DNA of 64,000 bases from Hymenobacter psoromatis. Lineage in GTDB: Bacteria > Bacteroidota > Bacteroidia > Cytophagales > Hymenobacteraceae. The stretch is from assembly GCF_020012125.1 (NCBI RefSeq), contig NZ_JAIFAG010000001.1, forward strand, positions 3,596,001 through 3,660,000, read 5' to 3'. Below, piece by piece: positions 1,995 to 61,833 of this stretch. The notes beneath the pieces were generated by a model. The model did no database searches, was not told the origin of the DNA, and saw only the letters and a program-made list of their open reading frames with translations. Positions within the stretch are counted from its first letter, which is position 1. The number at the start of each line of letters is the position of its first letter. The position numbers were made by a program, and so were the translations under genes.

Positions 1995-2001
1995 TCAAAG
2001 A

Positions 2002-3636
2002 TTATACTCCAAATATGTCTCTCCGTAATTGTTGATACATTTTAGTATCCGGTGTTACTAAAGGGACAAGATTTTCTAACATGAAAGCGTCCGAATTGCT
2101 TCCTGTTTGATTAAATGCATAAAGCTTTCTCACTTCCTGTCTTAAATTTTCCCCTATAGATTTCCAATCATCGGAAGGATTATGCCTTTCATTTATGCTG
2201 CGATTACTAAATCCTATTTTCGCTGCTTGAAGCTGAGGCCAAAGGTCATGCTTACCTATGTAATGAGAAAATTTTTCTAAAATTTCATCGTTTAATAGAT
2301 AAGCTTCTAGGTGCCTGAGCGATAGTATTTTATTTCCACTCTCAATAATCTCAAGGCGTTCTGTCTCATTACAATCATCCCGGTCAACAATAAACCTTAC
2401 TTCTACTGCCTGAATTACTTGACTAAATATTGAAGATAGTAGTGCAGATTTTTCTTTAACTTCATTACTACTTCCACCTGATATGAATGCTGAATCTGGA
2501 AACTCTGTTGAAAATATCTTTCCGTAACATTTCGCATCAAATTCTTTTTTTCGTTTCCCATTTGGGTCTCCTTCACACACAAAAATTTGAGTTGGTGAGA
2601 CTAACTCTGCCAATTCACCAATCGCAACAGCGAAGTTTTTTCGCCAAAAGTTCTTATCTGTAGTTGACGGAGTCATAACGACTGAACTATCAAAATCCTT
2701 CTCCCCAAAATCTAAAAAGGCAACGGTGCCTGGAAAGTCATTTTCAAGTTTTTGCGCTGCCTTCATCATTCCTATTGAATGAGTCGCAATCCAAAGCTGA
2801 GATTGATTAGGCAGCATATCATACAGCTCTTTTAGCAAATTACCTTGCACTGCGGTGTTCATATGAACCTCAGGCTCGTCGATGCAGAACACCGTATTGT
2901 CATAGCTTTCTCGCTTAACTACAAAGTCAAGTATCAAATCAAACGCAGCTTTTTCTCCTGCCGAGAGGTTTTTATATGGCCAGTCTTTTGAAAGTCCCTT
3001 TTCAAAACGAAACGTCCCGCCTGCTAATGGGTCACCTAATCCTATAAATTTAGCTCCACCTACTACTCTATCAAAAGAAGCTTTGACATTGCCAGTCAAT
3101 CTATCTCTTATTTCTTTTTTTGTTGTATTATCGTTTCCACTTGGGTCGAATATATCCGCAACAGTTTGCGCCACAATTCTTTGGTAGTTACTCGAAACAC
3201 GAGCGTCTATTGATATCATCATCGGCGGCCTAGTATTCTCCCTAAGAATATCCCCTTGTTTTGTTAACTGAGACATACTAAAATCGGGTTCGTATCTATA
3301 GGACGTTCTTATATAGAAGCATTTTGCGTCATTAGGCTGGACATTATTATACATAATACTTGGATAGTCATGGAATGACACACTCACTTTATTCATCGAA
3401 AACATGGCCCAATAATCGGCACTGAACGATGTTCCAGATTTAAAATAGTAGTCAGGCACACTATTGTAACCCCCTGCTGCCACTCCAGCTAGTGTGTTAA
3501 ATCCATCAAATACCGAAGATTTTCCACTACCGTTGGGTCCTACAAGTACAACCAGTCTTATAGTATTGCTTAGACCTTGTATGTTTAAATTATTAAATCT
3601 TTTAAAATCGCGCAGGGTAATAGAGTTAATCTTCAC
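2002..3636 (-). CDS. AAA ATPase with TOPRIM/DUF4435-like C-terminus (OLD/PARIS-like)
   Basis: The 544-residue product starts with an SMC-type N-terminus (ITLRDFKRFNN) and Walker A GPNGSGKS at about 33-40. It continues with an ABC-type signature LSAGEK near 224, Walker B VFCIDEPE near 249-256 and the H-loop ATHS near 284. From about 350 a second domain shows VCEGD with a conserved Glu and VDRDD near 417-421, the acidic pattern of a TOPRIM nuclease, followed by RHLEAYLL as in DUF4435 proteins. OLD nucleases and fused AriA/AriB (PARIS) proteins share this build and act in anti-phage defence; that role is inferred here. It starts with GTG, has no obvious partner gene, and is visibly more AT-rich than its neighbours, which points to transfer. 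Confidence 0.8.
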   Translation of the reverse strand: MKINSITLRDFKRFNNLNIQGLSNTIRLVVLVGPNGSGKSSVFDGFNTLAGVAAGGYNSVPDYYFKSGTSFSADYWAMFSMNKVSVSFHDYPSIMYNNVQPNDAKCFYIRTSYRYEPDFSMSQLTKQGDILRENTRPPMMISIDARVSSNYQRIVAQTVADIFDPSGNDNTTKKEIRDRLTGNVKASFDRVVGGAKFIGLGDPLAGGTFRFEKGLSKDWPYKNLSAGEKAAFDLILDFVVKRESYDNTVFCIDEPEVHMNTAVQGNLLKELYDMLPNQSQLWIATHSIGMMKAAQKLENDFPGTVAFLDFGEKDFDSSVVMTPSTTDKNFWRKNFAVAIGELAELVSPTQIFVCEGDPNGKRKKEFDAKCYGKIFSTEFPDSAFISGGSSNEVKEKSALLSSIFSQVIQAVEVRFIVDRDDCNETERLEIIESGNKILSLRHLEAYLLNDEILEKFSHYIGKHDLWPQLQAAKIGFSNRSINERHNPSDDWKSIGENLRQEVRKLYAFNQTGSNSDAFMLENLVPLVTPDTKMYQQLRRDIFGV

Positions 3637-3658
3637 TTTTTATTAATAAAGGTTGGAA

Positions 3659-3693
3659 AAAAGTTCTGTAGATGATATACATCTACAGAACTT
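3659..3693 (-). terminator. Intrinsic terminator of nrdA
   Basis: A perfect 14-bp inverted repeat (AAGTTCTGTAGATG and its complement, loop of five bases) is followed on the minus strand by a run of T. It lies between the nrdA stop and the ATPase start, so the ATPase gene is probably not served by nrdA read-through. Confidence 0.8.
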
Positions 3694-3718
3694 GATGTTT
3701 TTACGTCTTAATCATTAC

Positions 3719-6103
3719 CTACGACCCACACGCCTCGCAATCCTCCGGGTTATCCAGCGAGCAGCTCATGTCGCTTTGGTTCTTGGCTACCTCGGCGTAC
3801 AGGGGCTCCAGGGTTTCGGCGGCTTGCTTTTCGACCGTGAACTTGATGGCGTCGGCGGCGGCTTTGGTGCGCAGGTAGTACATGCCGGTTTTGAGGCCGC
3901 GCTTCCAGCTGTGGAAGTGCATACTGGTGAGCTTACCGAAGTTCACGTTCTGCACGTGCAGGTTCAGGCTCTGGCTCTGGCAGATGTAGGCCCCGCGGTC
4001 GGCGGCCATGTCGATGATGGTGCGCTGCGAGATTTCCCACACCGTCTTGTACAGGTCCTTGATGTGCTGCGGCACCCGCGCAATGCCCTGCACCGAGCCG
4101 TTGGCCGCGATGATGTCCTGCTTCATCTGCTCGTTCCAGAGGCCCAGCTTCACCAGGTCTTTCAGCAGGTGCTTGTTCACCACCATAAACTCGCCGCTGA
4201 GCACCCGGCGCACGTAAATGTTGCTGGTGTAGGGCTCAAACGACTCGTTGTTGCCCAGAATCTGGGCGGTGCTGGCGGTGGGCATGGGGGCCACCAGCAG
4301 CGAGTTGCGCACGCCGTGCTGCACCACGTTGGCGCGCAGGGCGTCCCAGTCCCAGCGGCCCGACTGCGGCGTCACGCCCCAGAGGTCGAACTGAAACTTG
4401 CCCTCGCTGAGCGGCGAGCCGGGGAAGGTTTCGTAAGCGCCCTCCTTCTTGGCGAGGTCCATCGAGGCCGTCATGGCGGCGAAGTAAATCGTCTCGAAAA
4501 TGTCGATATTCAGGCCCTTGGCCTCGTCGCTCTCGAAGGGCATTCGCAGGGCGATAAACGTATCGGCCAGGCCCTGCACGCCCAGCCCGATGGGCCGGTG
4601 GCGGAAGTTGGAGCGCTCGGTTTCGGGCACCGGGTAGTAGTTCACGTCAATCACCTTGTTCAGGTTCAGCGTGGCCTGGTAGGTGACTTCGTAGAGCTTG
4701 TCGTGGTCGAAGCGCAGGTTGCCGCGGCCGTCTTCCACCAGGTAGCGGGGTAGGGCCAGCGAGGCGAGGTTGCACACCGCAATCTCGTCTTTGTCTGTGT
4801 ACTCTAGAATCTCGGTGCAGAGGTTGCTCGACTTAATCGTGCCCAGGTTTTGCTGGTTGCTCTTGCCGTTGGCGGCATCCTTGAAGAGCATGTAGGGCGT
4901 GCCGGTTTCGGTCTGGCTTTCCAGGATGTGGAACCACAGCTCCTGCGCCTTGATGGTTTTGCGGCCCCTACCCTCCCGCTCGTACTTGGTGTAGAGCTTC
5001 TCAAACTCGGGTCCCCAGGTGGTATCGAGGCCGGGGCACTCGTGGGGGCACATCAGCGTCCAGTCGCCGTTGGCTTCCACGCGCTTCATGAACAGGTCGG
5101 GCGTCCAGAGGGCATAAAACAGGTCGCGGGCGCGCATTTCCTCCTTGCCGTGGTTCTTCTTGAGGTCCAGAAACTCGAATATATCGGCGTGCCAGGGCTC
5201 TAGGTAAATGGCGAACGCGCCTTTGCGCTTGCCGCCGCCCTGGTCCACGTAGCGGGCCGTATCGTTGAAGACCTTCAGCATCGGCACCAGGCCGTTGGAG
5301 TTGCCATTCGTACCCTTGATGTAGGAGCCCGTGGCGCGCACGTTGTGCACGGCCAGCCCGATGCCGCCCGCGCTTTGTGAAATCAGCGCGCAGTCCTTCA
5401 GCGTCTCATAAATACCCTCAATCGAGTCGTCCTTCACCGTCAGCAGAAAGCACGACGACATCTGCGGCTTGGGCGTGCCGGCATTGAAAAGCGTGGGGGT
5501 AGCGTGGGTAAACCAGCGCTCCGACATCAGATTATAGGTCTTGATGGCCGACTCAATGTCCTCCTTGTGGATGCCCACCGACACGCGCATCAGCATGTGC
5601 TGCGGGCGCTCCACTACCTTGCCTTCCAGCCGCAGCAAGTAGCTGCGCTCCAGGGTCTTGAAGCCGAAGAAATCGTAGTTATAATCCCGGTCATAAATAA
5701 TGGCCGAGTCCAGGGTGTGCGCGTGCTTATGGATGACCTCCCACACGTCCTTGGCAATAAGCGAGGCGTTATCGCCATTTTTGGGGTCCTCGTAAGTGTA
5801 AAGCCGCTTCATGGTGCTCGAAAACGACTTCGAAGTCACCTTGTGCAGGTTGCTCACCGCGATGCGGGCCGCCAGGATGGCGTAGTCGGGGTGGCGCGTG
5901 GTGAGCGAGGCGGCGGTTTCGGCGGCCAGGTTGTCCAACTCGATGGTCGTCACGCCGTCATAAATGCCATCGATGACCTTCTTGGCCACCTCAATGGGCG
6001 AAACGAAATTTTGATTCAGCCCGTAGCAAAGCTTTTCAATACGGGCGGTTACTTTGTCGAACTTGACCGACTCGCGGCGGCCATCGCGTTTGATTACAAG
6101 CAT
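3719..6103 (-). CDS. nrdA: Ribonucleoside-diphosphate reductase, alpha subunit
   Basis: This is the large subunit of class I ribonucleotide reductase, which reduces ribonucleoside diphosphates to deoxy forms with electrons from thioredoxin or glutaredoxin. The 794-residue product begins with an ATP-cone (VIKRDGR). It then has SSCFL and AVCNLASL, the redox-active cysteine pair, and NLCTEI with the thiyl-radical Cys and flanking Asn and Glu. [17 protein letters not shown] follows near the active site, and the C-terminal CEACGS is the shuttle CxxC. Length is normal and no lesion is seen. Start is ATG. It follows nrdB and a small ORF on the same strand and ends at a hairpin terminator. Confidence 0.97.
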
Positions 6104-15375: not shown

Positions 15376-15495
15376 TTTTTGTTACATTTGAAAAAATAAG
15401 AATTTTAATATATATTTTAATATTTACAACATATGTTTCTTAAAGAACTTTGTCAACGGCCCCTAAAATCTAGCTTTGCTTCCAAATTTCCTTTT

Positions 15496-52121: not shown

Positions 52122-53408
52122 ATGTTCGCTTTTTCTCCCCGCCTCCTGCTGGCCGTGCCCGCCCTCGCGGGTAGCCTGGCGCTGGTTGCCAGCCACCCCA
52201 CCAGCGTGCGCGTGGCCCCCGACCCCAACAATGCCGGCCTGACGCTGCCCACTGGCTTCGGCGCGCTGGTAGTGGCCGAAACCGGCGGCAAAGCCCGCCA
52301 CCTCACCGTGACCCCGGAGGGCACCATTTACGTGAAGCTGGGCAAGGTGAAGGATGGCAAAGGCATCCTGGAGCTGCACAGCCAGCCCGCGGGCAAAGCC
52401 ACCGTGACGGGCGGCTTCGGCGACTACGGTGGCACGGGTATGTACCTGAAAAACGGCTACCTCTACGCCTCCTCCGACCACGCCGTGTACCGCTATAAGC
52501 TTGACGCGAAGAACGAGGTAACCAACCCCACCGCGCCCGAGCTGCTGGTGCGCGGCCTGAAGGTGGGTACCCAGCACGAAACCAAGTCCATTGTGGTGGA
52601 CAACGCCGATAACCTGTACGTGAACGTAGGGGCCTACGCCAACGCCTGCCAGGAGCAGGACCGCACGCGCGGCTCCAAGGGCATCCCGAATTGCCCCATT
52701 CTGGATTCGGCGGGCGGCATCTGGCAGTTTAAGGCCGATAAGCTCAACCAGCGCTACCCCGACGGCACGCGCTACGCCACCGGCCTGCGCAACGTGGTGG
52801 GCCTCGACTGGAACCAGCAGGACAACCAGCTCTTCGTGATGCAGCACGGCCGCGACCAGCTCTACGACAACTGGCCCGCCCTCTACGATGCCAAGGAGTC
52901 GGCGGCGCTGCCCGCCGAGTGCATGTTTGCCCTCACCAAGGGTGCCAACGCCGGCTGGCCCTACACCTACTACGACCAGCAGCGCAAGGAAATTATGCAA
53001 GGCCCCGAGTACGGCGGCGATGGCAAAACGGCCGCCACCGGCGACTACCTCAAGCCCTCGGCCGCCTACCCCGGCCACATGGCCCCCAACGCCCTGCTCT
53101 TCTACACCGGCACCATGTTTCCGGCCAAGTACCGCAACGGCGCGTTCATCGCCTTCCACGGCTCCTGGAACCGCGCCCCCGAGCCGCAAAAGGGCTATTT
53201 CGTCGTCTTCCAGCCCTTTAAGGATGGCAAGCCCGCTGGTGACTGGGAGGTTTTTGCCGACAATTTCGCCGGCTCGCCCGAGAAGGCGGCCAGCGGCCGC
53301 GCAGACCACCGCCCCTGCGGCCTCGCCCAGGGCCCCGATGGCTCGCTCTACGTGAGCGACGACCAGAAGGGCACCATCTACCGCATCGTGTACAACGCTA
53401 AGAAATAA
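52122..53408 (+). CDS. PQQ-type sugar dehydrogenase
   Basis: The 428-residue product has a signal peptide (LLLAVPALAGSLALVAS) and a six-bladed beta-propeller. Segments include RHLTVTPEGTIYVKLG, GMYLKNGYLYASSDHAVYRYKLD, GTRYATGLRNVVGLDW, AFIAFHGSWNRAPEPQKGYFVVF and ADHRPCGLAQGPDGSLYVSDD. These match the sorbosone/glucose dehydrogenase family that uses PQQ. The next gene, a cytochrome c, overlaps by one base and is the probable electron acceptor. ATG at 52122 is chosen. Confidence 0.88.
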   Translation: MFAFSPRLLLAVPALAGSLALVASHPTSVRVAPDPNNAGLTLPTGFGALVVAETGGKARHLTVTPEGTIYVKLGKVKDGKGILELHSQPAGKATVTGGFGDYGGTGMYLKNGYLYASSDHAVYRYKLDAKNEVTNPTAPELLVRGLKVGTQHETKSIVVDNADNLYVNVGAYANACQEQDRTRGSKGIPNCPILDSAGGIWQFKADKLNQRYPDGTRYATGLRNVVGLDWNQQDNQLFVMQHGRDQLYDNWPALYDAKESAALPAECMFALTKGANAGWPYTYYDQQRKEIMQGPEYGGDGKTAATGDYLKPSAAYPGHMAPNALLFYTGTMFPAKYRNGAFIAFHGSWNRAPEPQKGYFVVFQPFKDGKPAGDWEVFADNFAGSPEKAASGRADHRPCGLAQGPDGSLYVSDDQKGTIYRIVYNAKK

Positions 53409-53872
53409 TGACGAGTAAGCGAGCTCTCCTGACCCTGGCGCTGGTTGGCAGCGCGCTGACGCTGCACGCGCAGCACCGCCCTACCCCCGCCGCCAGGGCC
53501 AAACCCACTACCGCCAAAGCCGACCCGGCAATGGCGGCTTCCCTCACCCGCGGCGCAGTGGTGTATAAGAACGTGTGCATCACCTGCCACATGGCCGATG
53601 GCGGCGGCGTGCCCAACATGAACCCGCCGCTCATCAAAACGGAGTACGTGCTCGGCGACAAAACCCGCCTATCCCACATCGTGCTGGCCGGCCTCGCCGA
53701 GCCCATTGAAATTGACGGCAACGACTATAAGCAGCATATGCCTGCCCAAGCCTACCTCACCGACCAGCAGGTGGCTGACGTGCTCACCTACGTGCGCAAT
53801 CAGTTTGGCAACAAGGCCAGCGCCGTGCAGGTGGCCGAGGTAAAGGCCGTGCGCGCTACCCTCCCGAAATAA
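53408..53872 (+). CDS. Cytochrome c, class I, electron acceptor
   Basis: The 154-residue product has a signal peptide (LLTLALVGSALTLHAQ), a Pro/Lys linker, and one heme-c domain: GAVVYKNVCITCHMADGGGVPNMNPPL with CxxCH, YKQHMPAQAYLTDQQVADVLTYVRNQFG with the axial Met. Start ATG shares its first base with the dehydrogenase TAA (TAATGA). The coupling suggests the two form one dehydrogenase-cytochrome chain. Confidence 0.93.
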   Translation: MTSKRALLTLALVGSALTLHAQHRPTPAARAKPTTAKADPAMAASLTRGAVVYKNVCITCHMADGGGVPNMNPPLIKTEYVLGDKTRLSHIVLAGLAEPIEIDGNDYKQHMPAQAYLTDQQVADVLTYVRNQFGNKASAVQVAEVKAVRATLPK

Positions 53873-53924
53873 CTGTTACGCAGGCAGTATGCGCGGCGGC
53901 TCCGGCAACGGGGCCGCCGCGTTG

Positions 53925-53932
53925 TATTTTTG
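53925..53932 (+). promoter_or_regulatory. Promoter -7 element before the interrupted ATPase
   Basis: Exact TATTTTTG lies 24 bases before the ATG at 53957, after the end of the cytochrome gene. Confidence 0.55.
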
Positions 53933-53956
53933 GCCCTACCCCCCTCTTTTACCGCG

Positions 53957-55189
53957 ATGAACGAGCAACTGATTGTCAAGAATTTCGGACCCATCAAAGA
54001 CGCCACAGTGGACTTTAAGCGCGTCACGGTTTTCATTGGGCCGACGGGCGGGGGGAAAAGCACGCTGGCGAAGCTAGCGGCGATATTTCGGGACCCTTTT
54101 TATAATATTAATATCAATAACGAACCACACAAGCTGAATCCTCTATCTGATTTTTCTATTACTAATTTCTATCAGCCTACCTCAGAAGCTACTTTTAATA
54201 GCGGAGAAGATGGTATAAGATTAATTGATTTTGAAAAAAATAGCGTGGCTGTAATTGCTAGCGTTTCCATAAATGAGCTAAATAGAGAAATAATTACCAA
54301 ATCTAACGATAACATAGCCAAAGTAGTAGAATTATTTGGGAAGCATAAAGCAGCAAAAGATGATATAGATAAGGATTTAATAATTAATGAAATAATACAA
54401 ATTATTCAAAATAATAAATCACAGCATGATTTTTTTGAACAGCTAGTTCCTAAACAACTTTACACATCGCATTCTCATTTTTTCCCAGCTAGTAGGAGCA
54501 TACTACCAGCTGTAGAGTATTTATGGGCTGGATTTCTCTGAGATGATATTGGCCTGCCTAAGGACGTTCTTTATTTTGCTAATGACTTTTCGCTTTCTCG
54601 CCGAGATATTTCTGAACTAGATATCCCTTTTCTTAACGCCAAATATCTCCACCGCAACGGTCAGGATTTCATTAAAATCCCTGACATGGAAACACTTTTC
54701 CGCCTTTACGAAACGGCCAGCGGTATCCAATCAGTAACTCCAATGCTGGTGCTGCTAGAGCATATGAGCCGCAATACCGAGCAGGCGCAAAGCTTTATCA
54801 TTGAAGAGCCAGAACTAAACCTCTACCCCACCGCCCAGCAAGGGCTGCTGAATTGGCTGGTAGAGAAATGCACGAAGGGCGAGAACGACCTGACGATTAC
54901 TACGCACAGCCCTTATATCCTTTCGCACCTCAACTTATTGCTTTACGCCTATCAGGTGGCCGAAAAGCATCCCGACCGCAAGGAAGCTGTTGCAGCCATT
55001 GTGCCCGAGGCTAGCTGGATTAACCCCAAGGAATTTGCCTGCTACCACGTAGGAGATGGAGGCGTAAAGTCATTAGTAGATGAGGAGTTAGGACTTATCG
55101 ATAATAACGAACTGGATAATATTTCGGGCGACAAGGCCGACGCCTTTGACCAGCTTATTAATATCAATCGCGGCTTTACTCATGCTTAA
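53957..55189 (+). pseudogene. AAA ATPase of a two-gene module, with one in-frame TGA
   Basis: The reading is one frame of 411 codons interrupted only by TGA at 54539-54541 (codon 195). The product starts LIVKNFGPIKDATVDFKRVTVFIGPTGGGKSTLAKL with Walker A near 28-36. FFPASRSILPAV follows near 176, the family's P-A-E-R-S-like motif. After the TGA come DDIGLPKDVLYF, a signature-like ASGIQSVTPML, Walker B FIIEEPELNLYP near 280, and the H-loop TTHSPYILSHL. Such ATPases are known from Bacteroidota and resemble the AAA_15/AAA_21 sensors of defence systems. Codons 43-180 are strikingly AT-rich. It overlaps the next gene by eight bases. It may be a pseudogene, a sequencing error, or recoded. Confidence 0.75.
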
Positions 55190-55748
55190 AGAGTTTCGAG
55201 CTGCTTTTCGCGAGGAATTGAAAGTAGGTATATGTATTACCGCTCACATTGAAAGCGAGTTTTTTGTACACGACCTAGCTTCACCCAGCAAAGAACCTTG
55301 CCATCCTTATACGGGCGAAATGCAGTCAGTTTTTGATTTACGTGTAGTGAATCTTCAGCAACGTGAGGTGCAATTGCTGCGCGTGGATAAGTGCTTTTAT
55401 CCGCACGGCGGCGCTGATACGCGTTGCGACTGTGCTTTACTAACCGAGCAGCTATTCCTGGTCGAATTCAAAAAACCTGAGTTGGAGCACGCAAATGACG
55501 GTAAGCAGCGTCATGCTAGCGCTAGCGATTGTTTACCTCAGCTAGCCGCCTCTCTAAAAGACTTTTATGACCGAGGTGTTATTCCACGTGGTGCGTTAAT
55601 AGTGGCGCACGCCTGCGTTGGCTACACGCATCCTACCCCTTATAACGGAGCAGATTATCGAAAACTAAAAGCGTCTTTTGATGCCCGAACTGCCGATATT
55701 CCGGTTAGAATCAAGTTAGTAGTAGATAATAAACTGGTTATTTCTTAA
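55182..55748 (+). CDS. Putative PD-(D/E)XK nuclease partner of the ATPase
   Basis: The 188-residue product has no close family I can name. Its core reads ADTRCDCALLTEQLFLVEFKKPE with Asp near 83, Glu near 95 and Lys near 97, then CLPQLAASLKDFY with Gln near 120. The spacing D-x11-E-x-K and a later Q in a helix is the pattern of PD-(D/E)XK nucleases of the RecB/Cas4 type. N- and C-terminal parts are compact with no membrane segment. Its ATG lies inside the last codons of the ATPase gene (ATGCTTAA), so translation is probably coupled. Nuclease role is inference. Confidence 0.55.
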   Translation: MLKEFRAAFREELKVGICITAHIESEFFVHDLASPSKEPCHPYTGEMQSVFDLRVVNLQQREVQLLRVDKCFYPHGGADTRCDCALLTEQLFLVEFKKPELEHANDGKQRHASASDCLPQLAASLKDFYDRGVIPRGALIVAHACVGYTHPTPYNGADYRKLKASFDARTADIPVRIKLVVDNKLVIS

Positions 55749-55828: not shown

Positions 55829-56710
55829 ATGCCCTCCCCCGAATTTCGCCGCATTTTTCAGGTTATTGATGGCATCAAGAAAGCAGTGGGCGACGGTTTC
55901 GACGTGACCAGCCCCATGCCGGGGCCGCGCATCCGGCAGCTGAGTCCCTATCTGCTCATCGACCATATCGGGCCGATGCAGATTCAGCCCACCGATACGC
56001 CGCTGGGCTCGCCGCCCCACCCGCACCGGGGCTTCGAAACGGTGACCGTGGTGTACGACGGCTACCTGGCTCACCGCGACACGGCCGGCCACGATGGTAC
56101 TATTGGCCCCGGCGACGTGCAGTGGATGACCGCCGGCGCGGGCCTGCGCCACGCCGAGCTATACGACCGCGACTTTGCCCGGCGCGGCGGCACCCTGGAG
56201 TTGTTGCAGCTCTGGGTGAATATGCCCAAAGCCGATAAGCTCGTGGCCCCTAAGTACCAGGAGCTACTCGCCAGTGCCATTCCGAGCGTGCCGGTGCCGG
56301 GCGGCGGGGGCAACATTCGCGTGATTGCGGGCAGCTACGGCGGGGCCACGGGGCCGGCCAGCACGTTTTCGCCCCTCACGCTGCTCGATTTGAAGCTGGA
56401 TAAAGGCGCTGACTTTGTGCTTTCCTTACCCCCCGCCTACAACGTGGGCCTCTACGTGGTGCGCGGCGCGGTGCTGGTGAATGGCGACCGGCCGGCCAAG
56501 ACGCAGCAGCTGGTGGTGCTAGGCTGGAACTCGGCCGACGTGCAGCTTACCGCCTCCGAAAACAGCCTGGTGCTGGTGCTGGCTGGCGCGCCTATTGAGG
56601 AGCCGCTAGCGACTTACGGACCCTTCGTGATGAATACGAACGAGGAGCTGATGGCCGCCATCGCCGATTTTGAGGGGGGTAGGATGGGGACGTTCCCGGA
56701 AGACGAGTAG
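55829..56710 (+). CDS. Pirin family protein
   Basis: The 293-residue product has two cupin domains: PHPHRGFETVTVVYDGYLAHRDTAGHDGTIGPGDVQWMTAGAGLRHAE, with the pirin metal-binding His-x-His and Glu pattern, and the C-terminal one with YVVRGAVLVNGDRPAKTQQLVVLG. The APIEEPLATYGPFVMNTNEEL end is typical. Pirins bind iron, and some act as quercetin dioxygenases; the role here is unknown. Start ATG at 55829. It lies downstream of the ATPase-nuclease pair but looks native in composition. Confidence 0.93.
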   Translation: MPSPEFRRIFQVIDGIKKAVGDGFDVTSPMPGPRIRQLSPYLLIDHIGPMQIQPTDTPLGSPPHPHRGFETVTVVYDGYLAHRDTAGHDGTIGPGDVQWMTAGAGLRHAELYDRDFARRGGTLELLQLWVNMPKADKLVAPKYQELLASAIPSVPVPGGGGNIRVIAGSYGGATGPASTFSPLTLLDLKLDKGADFVLSLPPAYNVGLYVVRGAVLVNGDRPAKTQQLVVLGWNSADVQLTASENSLVLVLAGAPIEEPLATYGPFVMNTNEELMAAIADFEGGRMGTFPEDE

Positions 56711-59780: not shown

Positions 59781-59886
59781 CCGCCTACTGCGTAGAAACG
59801 CGACCCATCGCGTCTCTACGCAGTAGGCGGCAATTGAACTCAAGAGCGGCGCAGATGTGGGAGAGACGCGATGGGTCGCGGCTCTA
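59781..59886. repeat. Inverted repeat cluster, family IV
   Basis: A cruciform at 59781-59830 (CCGCCTACTGCGTAGA and complement around ACGCGACCCATCGCG) is followed by a further GAGACGCGATGGGTCGCGG at 59861-59881. It lies between the dxs stop and the aldo/keto reductase start. The words match the repeat at 10262. Confidence 0.8.
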
Positions 59887-61833
59887 CATCTCTGTTACCT
59901 TATCGCGCACGGCGTCGCGCACCTTGGCACTCATTTCGCGCACGGTCTCCGCGATGCCGGTGGCGTCGAAACCGCACTCGTGGTAGAGCTGGTCCTGGGT
60001 GCCGTGCTCCACCACGCGGTCCGGGATGCCGAGGCGGCGCACGGGCAGGTGCAGGCCGTTATCGGTCAGGAATTCGAGCACCGCCGAGCCGAAGCCGCCG
60101 GGTAGGCAGCCATCTTCCACAGTGATGATAGCGCGGTAGCGGCGGGCCACGGCCAGCAGCATTTCCTCATCGAGCGGCTTGCAAAAGCGCATGTCATAGT
60201 GGCCCACGTCAAGGCCCTCGGCGGCGAGGGTAGCAGTGGCTTTCGCGGCGTAGTTGCCGATGTGGCCGATGCTGAGAATGGCCACGCCACCTGCCTCGCC
60301 CTCGTGCACCACGCGGCCCGTGCCGATGGCCACGCGCTGGAGCGGCGTGCGCCACTCGGGCAGCACGCCCTCGCCGCGGGGGTAGCGAATGCTGAACGGC
60401 CCCGCGTTTTCGGGCAGCTGGGCAGTGTACATGAGGTTGCGTAGCTCCTGCTCGTTCATGGGAGCGCTCACCACCATATTGGGGATGCAGCGCATATAGG
60501 CCAAGTCGTAGCTGCCGTGGTGGGTAGGGCCGTCGGCCCCGGCAAAGCCGGCGCGGTCGAGGCAGAATACCACGTGCAGGTTTTGCAGGGCCACGTCGTG
60601 CACCACTTGGTCGTAGCCGCGCTGCATAAACGACGAGTAGATGTTGCAGAACGGCACCATGCCCTGCGTGGCCAAACCCGCCGAAAACGTAACGGCGTGT
60701 TGCTCAGCAATGCCCACGTCGAAGGCCCGCTCGGGCATGGCCGCCATCATAATATTCAACGACGAACCCGACGGCATAGCGGGGGTCACACCCATGATTT
60801 TGTCGTTGGCCTGGGCCAGCTCCAGCAGCGTGTGGCCAAACACGTCCTGGTACTTGGGCGGCTGGGGCCGGTCGGGGATTTTCTTATAAATCTCGCCCGT
60901 GATTTTATCAAACAGGCCCGGCGCGTGCCACAGCGTCTGGTCCTTTTCGGCCAAAGCATAACCTTTACCCTTCACGGTGACGCAGTGCAGCAGCTTGGGG
61001 CCAGGAATGCTCTTAATGTCATTCAGCACGGCCACCAGGTGCTGCACATCGTGCCCGTCCACGGGGCCGAAGTAGCGGAAGTTCAGCGCCTCAAACAGGT
61101 TGCTCTGCTTGAGGAGGGTAGCCTTCATGGCGGCCTCTACTTTGCGGGCAATCTGCTGCGGGTTAGGACCAAACTTGCTCAGCTTGCCAAGCACGTTCCA
61201 CAGCTCGTCGCGCACTTTGTTGTAGGTGCGCGAGGTGGTGATATCGGTGAGGTATTCCTTGAGCGCGCCCACGTTGGGGTCGATGCTCATGCAGTTGTCG
61301 TTGAGCACCACAATCATATTGTTGCGGATGGCCCCGGCGTGGTTGAGCGCCTCGAAGCTCATGCCGGCCGTCATGGCCCCGTCGCCAATTACGGCGATGT
61401 GCTGACGGTCAAATTCTTTTTTATAATCGGAAGCTACGGCCATGCCCAGCGCCGCCCCGATGCTGGTGCTGCTGTGGCCCACGCCGAAGGCATCGTACGC
61501 ACTTTCGCTGCGCTTGGGGAAACCCGACATGCCACCGTAGCGGCGGTTGGTGGGAAAGCGGTCGCGCCTACCCGTCAATATTTTATGGCCATAGGCTTGG
61601 TGCCCAACATCCCAGACCAATTGGTCGTAAGGCGTGTGGAAGACGTAGTGCAGCGCTACCGTCAGCTCGACTACCCCCAACGAAGCGCCGAAGTGCCCGC
61701 CGTAGATGCTTACCGTGTCGATAATGAACTCGCGCAGCTCGGCGCTAACCTGTACCAACTGTTCGGGACTGAGCTTTTTAAGGTCGTCGGGCGAGGATAT
61801 CGCCGCCAGAAGCGGGCCGGGTTCAATTATCAT
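59884..61833 (-). CDS. dxs: 1-deoxy-D-xylulose-5-phosphate synthase
   Basis: The thiamine-diphosphate enzyme makes DXP from pyruvate and glyceraldehyde-3-phosphate, the first step of the MEP isoprenoid pathway. The 649-residue product has GGHFGASLGVVELTVALHYVF, WDVGHQAYGHKILTGRRD, IAVIGDGAMTAGMSFEALNHAG, DVGIAEQHAVTFSAGLATQG and FCLDRAGFAGADGPTHHGSYD. ATG start with a TACCTTTG element at 61898-61905. Its length is normal. Confidence 0.97.
   Translation of the reverse strand: MIIEPGPLLAAISSPDDLKKLSPEQLVQVSAELREFIIDTVSIYGGHFGASLGVVELTVALHYVFHTPYDQLVWDVGHQAYGHKILTGRRDRFPTNRRYGGMSGFPKRSESAYDAFGVGHSSTSIGAALGMAVASDYKKEFDRQHIAVIGDGAMTAGMSFEALNHAGAIRNNMIVVLNDNCMSIDPNVGALKEYLTDITTSRTYNKVRDELWNVLGKLSKFGPNPQQIARKVEAAMKATLLKQSNLFEALNFRYFGPVDGHDVQHLVAVLNDIKSIPGPKLLHCVTVKGKGYALAEKDQTLWHAPGLFDKITGEIYKKIPDRPQPPKYQDVFGHTLLELAQANDKIMGVTPAMPSGSSLNIMMAAMPERAFDVGIAEQHAVTFSAGLATQGMVPFCNIYSSFMQRGYDQVVHDVALQNLHVVFCLDRAGFAGADGPTHHGSYDLAYMRCIPNMVVSAPMNEQELRNLMYTAQLPENAGPFSIRYPRGEGVLPEWRTPLQRVAIGTGRVVHEGEAGGVAILSIGHIGNYAAKATATLAAEGLDVGHYDMRFCKPLDEEMLLAVARRYRAIITVEDGCLPGGFGSAVLEFLTDNGLHLPVRRLGIPDRVVEHGTQDQLYHECGFDATGIAETVREMSAKVRDAVRDKVTEM

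Follow-up and report, generated by a model that had tools for sequence, protein, structure and literature searches.

A PDC-M29 pair of Hymenobacter psoromatis and the mosaic, hypervariable ATPase of its relatives

Within the window, the 64,000-nucleotide stretch of Hymenobacter psoromatis DNA analysed here, an ATPase gene (A) and a small downstream gene (B) form a pair that is a copy of PDC-M29 (PDC-M29A/PDC-M29B), a candidate system of PADLOC-DB 2.0.0. Judged by sequence comparison, A is a mosaic in Hymenobacter and its family: a segment bounded by two conserved joints (about codons 47-280) varies without relation to B and the C-tail of A. The pair itself is a known candidate; no description of an exchangeable middle of A at a dxs-linked place, or of a hypervariable or modular sensor of such a design, was found in the open PubMed Central literature.

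Locus organization and composition

The whole frame of A spans positions 53957 to 55189 on the plus strand (410 codons, ATG at 53957, TAA at 55187-55189). B, encoding 188 aa, lies at 55182-55748 on the same strand (ATG at 55182, stop at 55746-55748) and overlaps the A frame by eight bases. The original prediction had described this overlap between an ATPase frame and a small D-ExK-Q protein, and both the coordinates and the motif residues agree with it. At B's own composition, 188 open codons would arise with a chance of about 3e-5, placing B beyond chance, and B is also conserved in other species. The ATPase gene itself was described correctly only in part: the frame does carry Walker A and Walker B motifs, but it is split by a TGA at 54539-54541 (+) that had been overlooked. 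Because of this in-frame TGA at codon 195, the sole stop within the 410-codon frame, the 'AAA ATPase' consists of two ORFs, with the stop separating the P-loop part from the Walker B part. The 5' part (53957-54538, +) holds the ATG, Walker A (GPTGGGKST, from 54038) and the variable segment, and the 3' part in the same frame (54542-55189, +) holds Walker B (FIIEEPE, from 54794), TTHS (from 54899), the C-tail and the TAA. Pfam assigns AAA_15/AAA_23 to the first part and AAA_15/AAA_21 to the second.

The pair is flanked by a cytochrome c gene on the left (53408-53872, +) and a pirin gene on the right (55829-56710, +), and a dxs-like gene (59884-61833, minus strand) serves as a landmark of the chromosomal place. 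GC content is 0.55, 0.29, 0.45 and 0.49 in A codons 1-46, 47-174, 175-280 and 281-410, respectively, and 0.46 in B, compared to 0.64 and 0.65 in the cytochrome c and pirin genes on either side. The earlier observation of an AT-rich module between GC-rich neighbours is therefore borne out, although it can be read more narrowly: AT content peaks in the exchanged segment of A and is not a property of the whole module to the same degree. A second low-GC stretch (GC 0.38-0.44) is located at 2001-4000 of the window, which is otherwise mostly about 60% GC.

The promoter element assigned to the pair did not hold up. At 53925-53932, TATTTTTG is the T-tract following a strong hairpin (MFE -36.7 kcal/mol, z -4.45), within a terminator-like hairpin and T-tract (53883-53937, +) behind the cytochrome c gene. 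TANNTTTG is not enriched, with 25 occurrences in the window versus 22.8 expected, and the pattern TTTG-N17-21-TANNTTTG matches the window once, at 15449, far from the pair. The promoter reading of TATTTTTG was dropped in favour of a terminator hairpin with its T-tract.

Family assignment

In PADLOC, the first part of A matches AriA (4.5e-11) and PDC-M29A (4.8e-11) in a tie, and the second part matches PDC-M29A at 5.1e-33. PDC-M29B is the sole model matched by the B protein of the window (4.5e-6, for a model without a curated cut-off). PDC-M29B is matched by 29/29 B proteins (window included, E<=0.01) and PDC-M29A by 28/28 A relatives (E<=1e-3); all 28 also match AriA (best 6.9e-27) and a large number of further ATPase models with weaker scores. 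Besides both profile models, the window pair shares with PDC-M29 the gene order, A being directly upstream of B, and the overlap or close spacing. The module was first taken as undescribed, which is no longer tenable since PADLOC-DB 2.0.0 already catalogues it. Relative to other PDC-M29 copies, the window pair has a stop in A; the hypervariable AT-rich middle of A is a trait of the Hymenobacter copies, the middle being variable in Flavobacterium-type copies, whereas in 26 more distant copies the middles are homologous in every pair. According to PMC12988326, PDCs derive from 'guilt-by-embedding' and most still await validation. PMC12409345 reports no evidence of defence for two other PDCs tested in one native host. 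No literature naming PDC-M29 was found in an open PubMed Central search.

HEC-02A/B is a further catalogued pair of an ATPase and a small D-ExK protein. Like PDC-M29, it combines an ABC-type ATPase with a small D-ExK partner; in Hymenobacter, the HEC-02A middle is also variable, low in GC3 and unlinked to its B, and a HEC-02 pair fills the same cytochrome c/pirin gap in one relative. However, the two are separate profile families whose B profiles hardly align (HEC-02B comparison probability 5%), the variability is milder in HEC-02A, and the N-terminal codons of HEC-02A track HEC-02 B. The window pair does not belong to HEC-02, with no HEC-02 model among the 25 matches listed for A and B matching PDC-M29B alone. 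A HEC-02A-like ATPase (2.7e-50, G000:C2:61579-62529) with a 196-aa D-ExK partner (L200) is nevertheless present elsewhere in the genome to which the window belongs. No relevant paper on HEC-02 was found in an open PubMed Central search.

A also resembles AriA of PARIS, an ATPase that keeps the nuclease AriB bound and releases it upon a phage trigger (PMC11455837), and the logic proposed below is likewise that of an ATPase holding and releasing a nuclease. However, AriB is a TOPRIM nuclease, whereas B carries a D-ExK motif and has no TOPRIM or AriB match in Pfam or PADLOC. The ATPase part of A is furthermore similar to the OLD family nuclease (6p74, 1.9e-10). The OLD nuclease carries its own TOPRIM domain, whereas neither part of A has a TOPRIM match in Pfam. 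No HNH or PtuB match, as for the HNH partner of Septu, was retrieved for B in Pfam and PADLOC, and B is unmatched in NCBIfam and PHROGs. In the latter two databases, A has matches far under the NCBI cut-offs (for L016, MADS3 at 4.2e-6 and the retron Eco8 effector at 1.7e-5) and also matches phage ATPases without known function.

Mosaic structure of the ATPase

The comparison is based on 37 Hymenobacter(aceae) A-B pairs from one genome per species (666 pairwise comparisons), leaving out L027/L113 (A frame split; also out of the B alignment of 29), L056, L110, L112 and repeated genomes. Mean pairwise amino acid identity is 0.89 in the conserved 5' joint (codons 1-46, 53957-54094, +), 0.14 in the hypervariable AT-rich middle (codons 47-174, 54095-54478, +), which is the proposed recognition segment, 0.46 in codons 175-239 and 0.62 in codons 240-410, with 0.34 for B. 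The middle is AT-rich in every copy: mean GC3 is 0.28 there (0.20-0.40), 0.70 in codons 1-46 and 0.57 in both the C-terminal part and B. Only 26 of the 666 pairs have homologous middles (BLAST E<=1e-3, short segments, both search directions), and 21 of these 26 have a B identity below 0.40. Middle homology is found in 3/51 pairs with B>=0.60 versus 21/537 with B<0.40 (Fisher p 0.45). B identity reaches 80% or more in 17 pairs, yet their aligned middles are 7-21% identical; two of these pairs (L004/L053 and L021/L024) keep weak BLAST homology in the middle.

A window scan along A gives a rho between local identity and B identity of -0.17 to 0.14 for codons 1-280 and of 0.42-0.84 for codons 281-410, and the Mantel test yields p 0.002 for the C-core against B and p 0.20 for the middle against B. 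Codons 175-280 (54479-54796, +), which contain the TGA, are unlinked to B; they are more alike in the 16 pairs with middles homologous at E<=1e-10, whereas codons 321-410 and B are not. The second conserved joint follows (codons 281-320, 54797-54916, +; mean identity 0.85-0.86), and after it the C-tail (codons 321-410, 54917-55186, +), of which the identity covaries with that of B (rho 0.57-0.84). This covariance may be plain linkage. In pairwise profiles, similarity breaks near codon 46 and a second time at a point that differs among pairs but mostly lies within codons 240-316. The window A itself looks like a mosaic, as its codons 181-345 share 64-89% nucleotide identity with L016, whose B is 32% identical, and its codons 316-410 share 69-84% with L046, whose B is 66% identical. 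The mosaic is deduced from pairwise identity, rho, Mantel and BLAST.

RecF, a housekeeping protein of similar fold, served as a control (27 of 30 loci, after a start-codon and length filter, partly from other genomes of the genus). It shows no dip, with a conservation of 0.64-0.97 and a GC3 of 0.54-0.82 per 20 residues, and its middle is homologous in 351/351 pairs. The fourfold-site identity of A codons 1-46 (0.576; 0.535-0.616) exceeds that of RecF (0.447; 0.396-0.496), an excess that fits between-species exchange of this stretch. In 26 distant PDC-M29 copies from Bacteroidota, proteobacteria and Treponema, a set grouped after the BLAST list was known, with near-duplicates included and cyanobacterial middles left out as missed by the motif pattern, the middles are homologous in 325/325 pairs. 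Seven distant copies from loci above 50% GC show a small GC3 drop (0.75 / 0.65 / 0.72). Since distant copies show neither strongly, the variability and the GC3 drop are not required by the fold. High variability is not confined to Hymenobacter either, because the middles of 14 Flavobacterium-type copies are homologous in only 25/91 pairs. The HEC-02A-like ATPases of the genus (23 of 30 loci, the 7 weaker-scoring ones left out) follow a weaker pattern, with homologous middles in 39/253 pairs, a GC3 of 0.33-0.43 in codons 41-140, a rho of -0.06 to 0.17 between the middle and its B, and N-terminal codons that track their own B (rho 0.50-0.54).

Silent cassettes as a source of middles were considered and set aside. 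A search with the window's middle gave a single copy in the same genome and, among 149 genomes, one weak homologue (G003). Members of the largest middle group are present in 4/92 genus genomes, in the A genes used to build the group, and in 0/296 phylum genomes, the latter search having no positive control. Middles common to A and HEC-02A are not claimed, based on 3 matches at E<=0.1, the best being 0.001 over 59 aa.

Predicted structure of protein B

The structure prediction suggested for the 188-residue protein resulted in a confident AlphaFold2 model (71 aligned sequences, pLDDT 90.9, pTM 0.88). The model has strands at 63-67, 84-87 and 91-96, a helix at 114-130 and a strand at 139-145, so that D83 precedes one strand of a hairpin, E95-x-K97 closes the second strand and Q120 is part of the helix after it. 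The PD-(D/E)XK core has that same order of elements, with its motif on the beta2-beta3 hairpin; B carries the D...ExK motif, and by element order the model places it on the hairpin of an alpha-beta core. In an alignment of 71 B proteins (window included; excluded are L056 with a truncated B, L072 with a B that runs off the record, L089 and L109), D69 and Q120 are present in 71/71, D83 in 67, E95 in 69 and K97 in 67. As K97 is replaced by Ser in 4/71, not all B proteins may cut. L011, L012 and L016 have ExS (EFSHG) instead of ExK, and their effectors are maybe inactive or altered. C18, C71 and C82 are conserved in 66, 64 and 69 of the 71 proteins; two of these cysteines are sequence neighbours of D69 and D83, and the three are perhaps a metal site or a redox switch.

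Among Pfam families, PDDEXK_9 is the one matched by most members (5/71, best 0.0018), and UL24 is matched by 3 (0.063). Foldseek with the B model gave no match at E<=0.001 in the PDB or in viral models, the best PDB match being XPF (0.055), and a PDB sequence search with B found nothing. VIA Z scores for B are at most 5.0: Card1 (4.7), FokI (4.5), Can2 (4.4) and Shedu are listed, with GTPases (4.8-5.0) and an acetyl-CoA carboxylase ranking above the nucleases. No reading was discarded because of these VIA scores. A model of the L046 B protein made without an alignment was poor (pLDDT 44.8) and was set aside. The stand-alone PD-(D/E)XK-like partner of the original prediction thus stands as to motif, element order and weak Pfam matches, but not as to a significant structural match. 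B is interpreted as a small PD-(D/E)XK-type putative nuclease in the same operon as A, as part of the explanation favoured below.

Co-occurrence and chromosomal place

A and B form a conserved two-gene module, as had been expected from their arrangement. B adjoins A in 74/80 A loci (the best 80 of 120 with A as query, including L056 and L072, where B is truncated or cut), and A is directly upstream of B in 22/22 B loci of the phylum search and in 30/30 loci of the genus/order search, own loci included in both (at L020, L028 and L029, B was recognised as the ORF after A, not by tblastn). These counts contradict the idea that the two genes rarely occur together elsewhere. Where A has no neighbouring B, the sequence runs out (L033, L087 and L108) or B is lacking (L080, L094 and L110). 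A four-base overlap is the commonest of 95 A-B junctions (46/95), B starting by the nearest start codon. B is present in 31/149 relatives (29/91 in the genus and 2 in the order) and in 22/395 phylum genomes, own genome included each time. Hosts of A loci include Hymenobacter, Arcicella, Flavobacterium, Chitinophaga, cyanobacteria, betaproteobacteria and Treponema.

Mobile or viral carriage was considered and set aside. The tblastn search of plasmids with the window's B, the search of viral contigs for related loci and the search of phages with a Microcystis B gave no match; the exception is one Persicobacter plasmid record, found with the B of a gammaproteobacterial MAG as query.

By its neighbours, the Hymenobacter module is mostly at one dxs-linked chromosomal place. 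A dxs homologue is found in 27/32 Hymenobacter(aceae) loci, and at least one of eight window neighbour genes in 31/32 (within <=10 kb each side, E<=1e-25), counts in which some loci have flanks shorter than 10 kb and hydrolase or reductase paralogues may be included. Six other genus genomes (L176-L181) have the module adjoining the corresponding cytochrome c gene, pirin gene or both. In relative G020, the cytochrome c/pirin gap holds a HEC-02A/B pair instead (2.7e-100 and 5.5e-14, L171 557-2163), so that one place is used by two candidate defence systems, and in other relatives it holds a 299-aa gene or another gene. The 299-aa gene, by its motif, presumably resembles a desaturase. Neighbour proteins of the Hymenobacter loci were scanned for 118 of 133 ORF-called neighbours at 22 loci (the 15 left out being mostly from L045 and L051), and the Pfam families seen most often are metabolic. 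As to the distance to known defence genes, suggested earlier as a check, 0/118 of these proteins match PADLOC at E<=1e-15. In Flavobacterium, the module may be at another constant place, since at L061, L064, L067, L069 and L075 it is followed, about equally far away, by a gene of some 2090 b.

Proposed mechanism and alternative explanations

With moderate confidence, the window pair is read as a PDC-M29 copy in which an ABC-ATPase would act as a sensor, recognise its signal by a segment that can be exchanged, and control a putative nuclease effector, presumably in defence. That A senses and B cuts is proposed by analogy with AriA/AriB of PARIS (PMC11455837). A would act as the sensor, being an ABC-type, OLD/AriA-like ATPase without TOPRIM, in which the variable segment, bounded by the P-loop joint and the Walker B joint, would recognise a signal of infection. 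A change in A driven by ATP would then pass via the C-tail to B, which would be kept inactive until the signal and then cut nucleic acid, stopping the phage by destruction of its DNA or by cell killing. Homologous recombination in the conserved joints would give old effectors new recognition segments. More tentative, and just short of an even call, is the wider proposal of a combinatorial, dxs-linked immune locus in Hymenobacter. There, homologous recombination in the two short conserved joints would combine ever new recognition segments with a less numerous set of C-tails and nucleases, comparable to the exchange of recognition domains among type I restriction specificity genes. HEC-02 shows a similar design in the genus, so exchangeable middles may be a general means of diversification in ABC-ATPase defence sensors. 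For most ABC-ATPase defence systems, the signal sensed is not known to have been established. The more than 30 natural alleles, with alike ends and effectors and unlike middles, point to one segment as the recognition part; these alleles are ready chimeras, and swapping middles between them could show what decides phage specificity.

The middle might instead diverge by very fast local substitution, driven by targeted mutagenesis or by selection for diversity. Among the 37 copies, even homologous middles are just 20-55% identical, a weak common pattern (FxxYxIxxYxxxxSxxxW) runs across the middle consensus, so that the middles may be one diverged fold, and the window's middle has a single copy in its own genome. 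This explanation is nevertheless unlikely: in pairs with B 83-92% identical and the A 3' part (from codon 256 or 286) about 76-98% identical at the nucleotide level, the middles are about 13-57% identical, most pairs with homologous middles have dissimilar B proteins, and the codon usage of the middle differs from that of codons 1-46. That the middle, as the least conserved part of A, is junk under relaxed selection is hardly credible, as 36 middles contain 0 stops versus 352 expected and keep a length of 125 +/- 10 codons, which contradicts decay. A role other than antiviral, as a toxin-antitoxin-like or DNA-repair pair, would agree with the similarity of A to the OLD family, with scanned neighbours free of PADLOC matches at E<=1e-15 and with a constant place amid metabolic genes. 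It is judged quite unlikely given the patchy distribution of the module in the genus, the hypervariable segment that keeps its frames open, HEC-02 in the same gap of a relative and the listing of the module as a defence candidate by PADLOC.

Whichever role the family has, A is not intact in the window because of the TGA at 54539, which would take away the Walker B part, the second half of the ATPase, and uncouple B. An assembly error or readthrough, leaving the window copy functional, would fit with the A frame and its conserved motifs carrying on in frame past this single stop and with the open frame of B. This is fairly improbable, as an internal stop is found in 0/36 other aligned A copies, and decay is seen elsewhere too (the truncated B of L056 and a relic at L110). 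Since the TGA is missing from 36/36 aligned relatives, the window copy is probably broken, and it is most likely inactive unless the TGA is an assembly error.

At L110, the relic (about 2811-2948) corresponds to A codons 1-46, with a stop soon after, and still lies near dxs. In L113 and L086, A is in two frames, making these further decayed copies.
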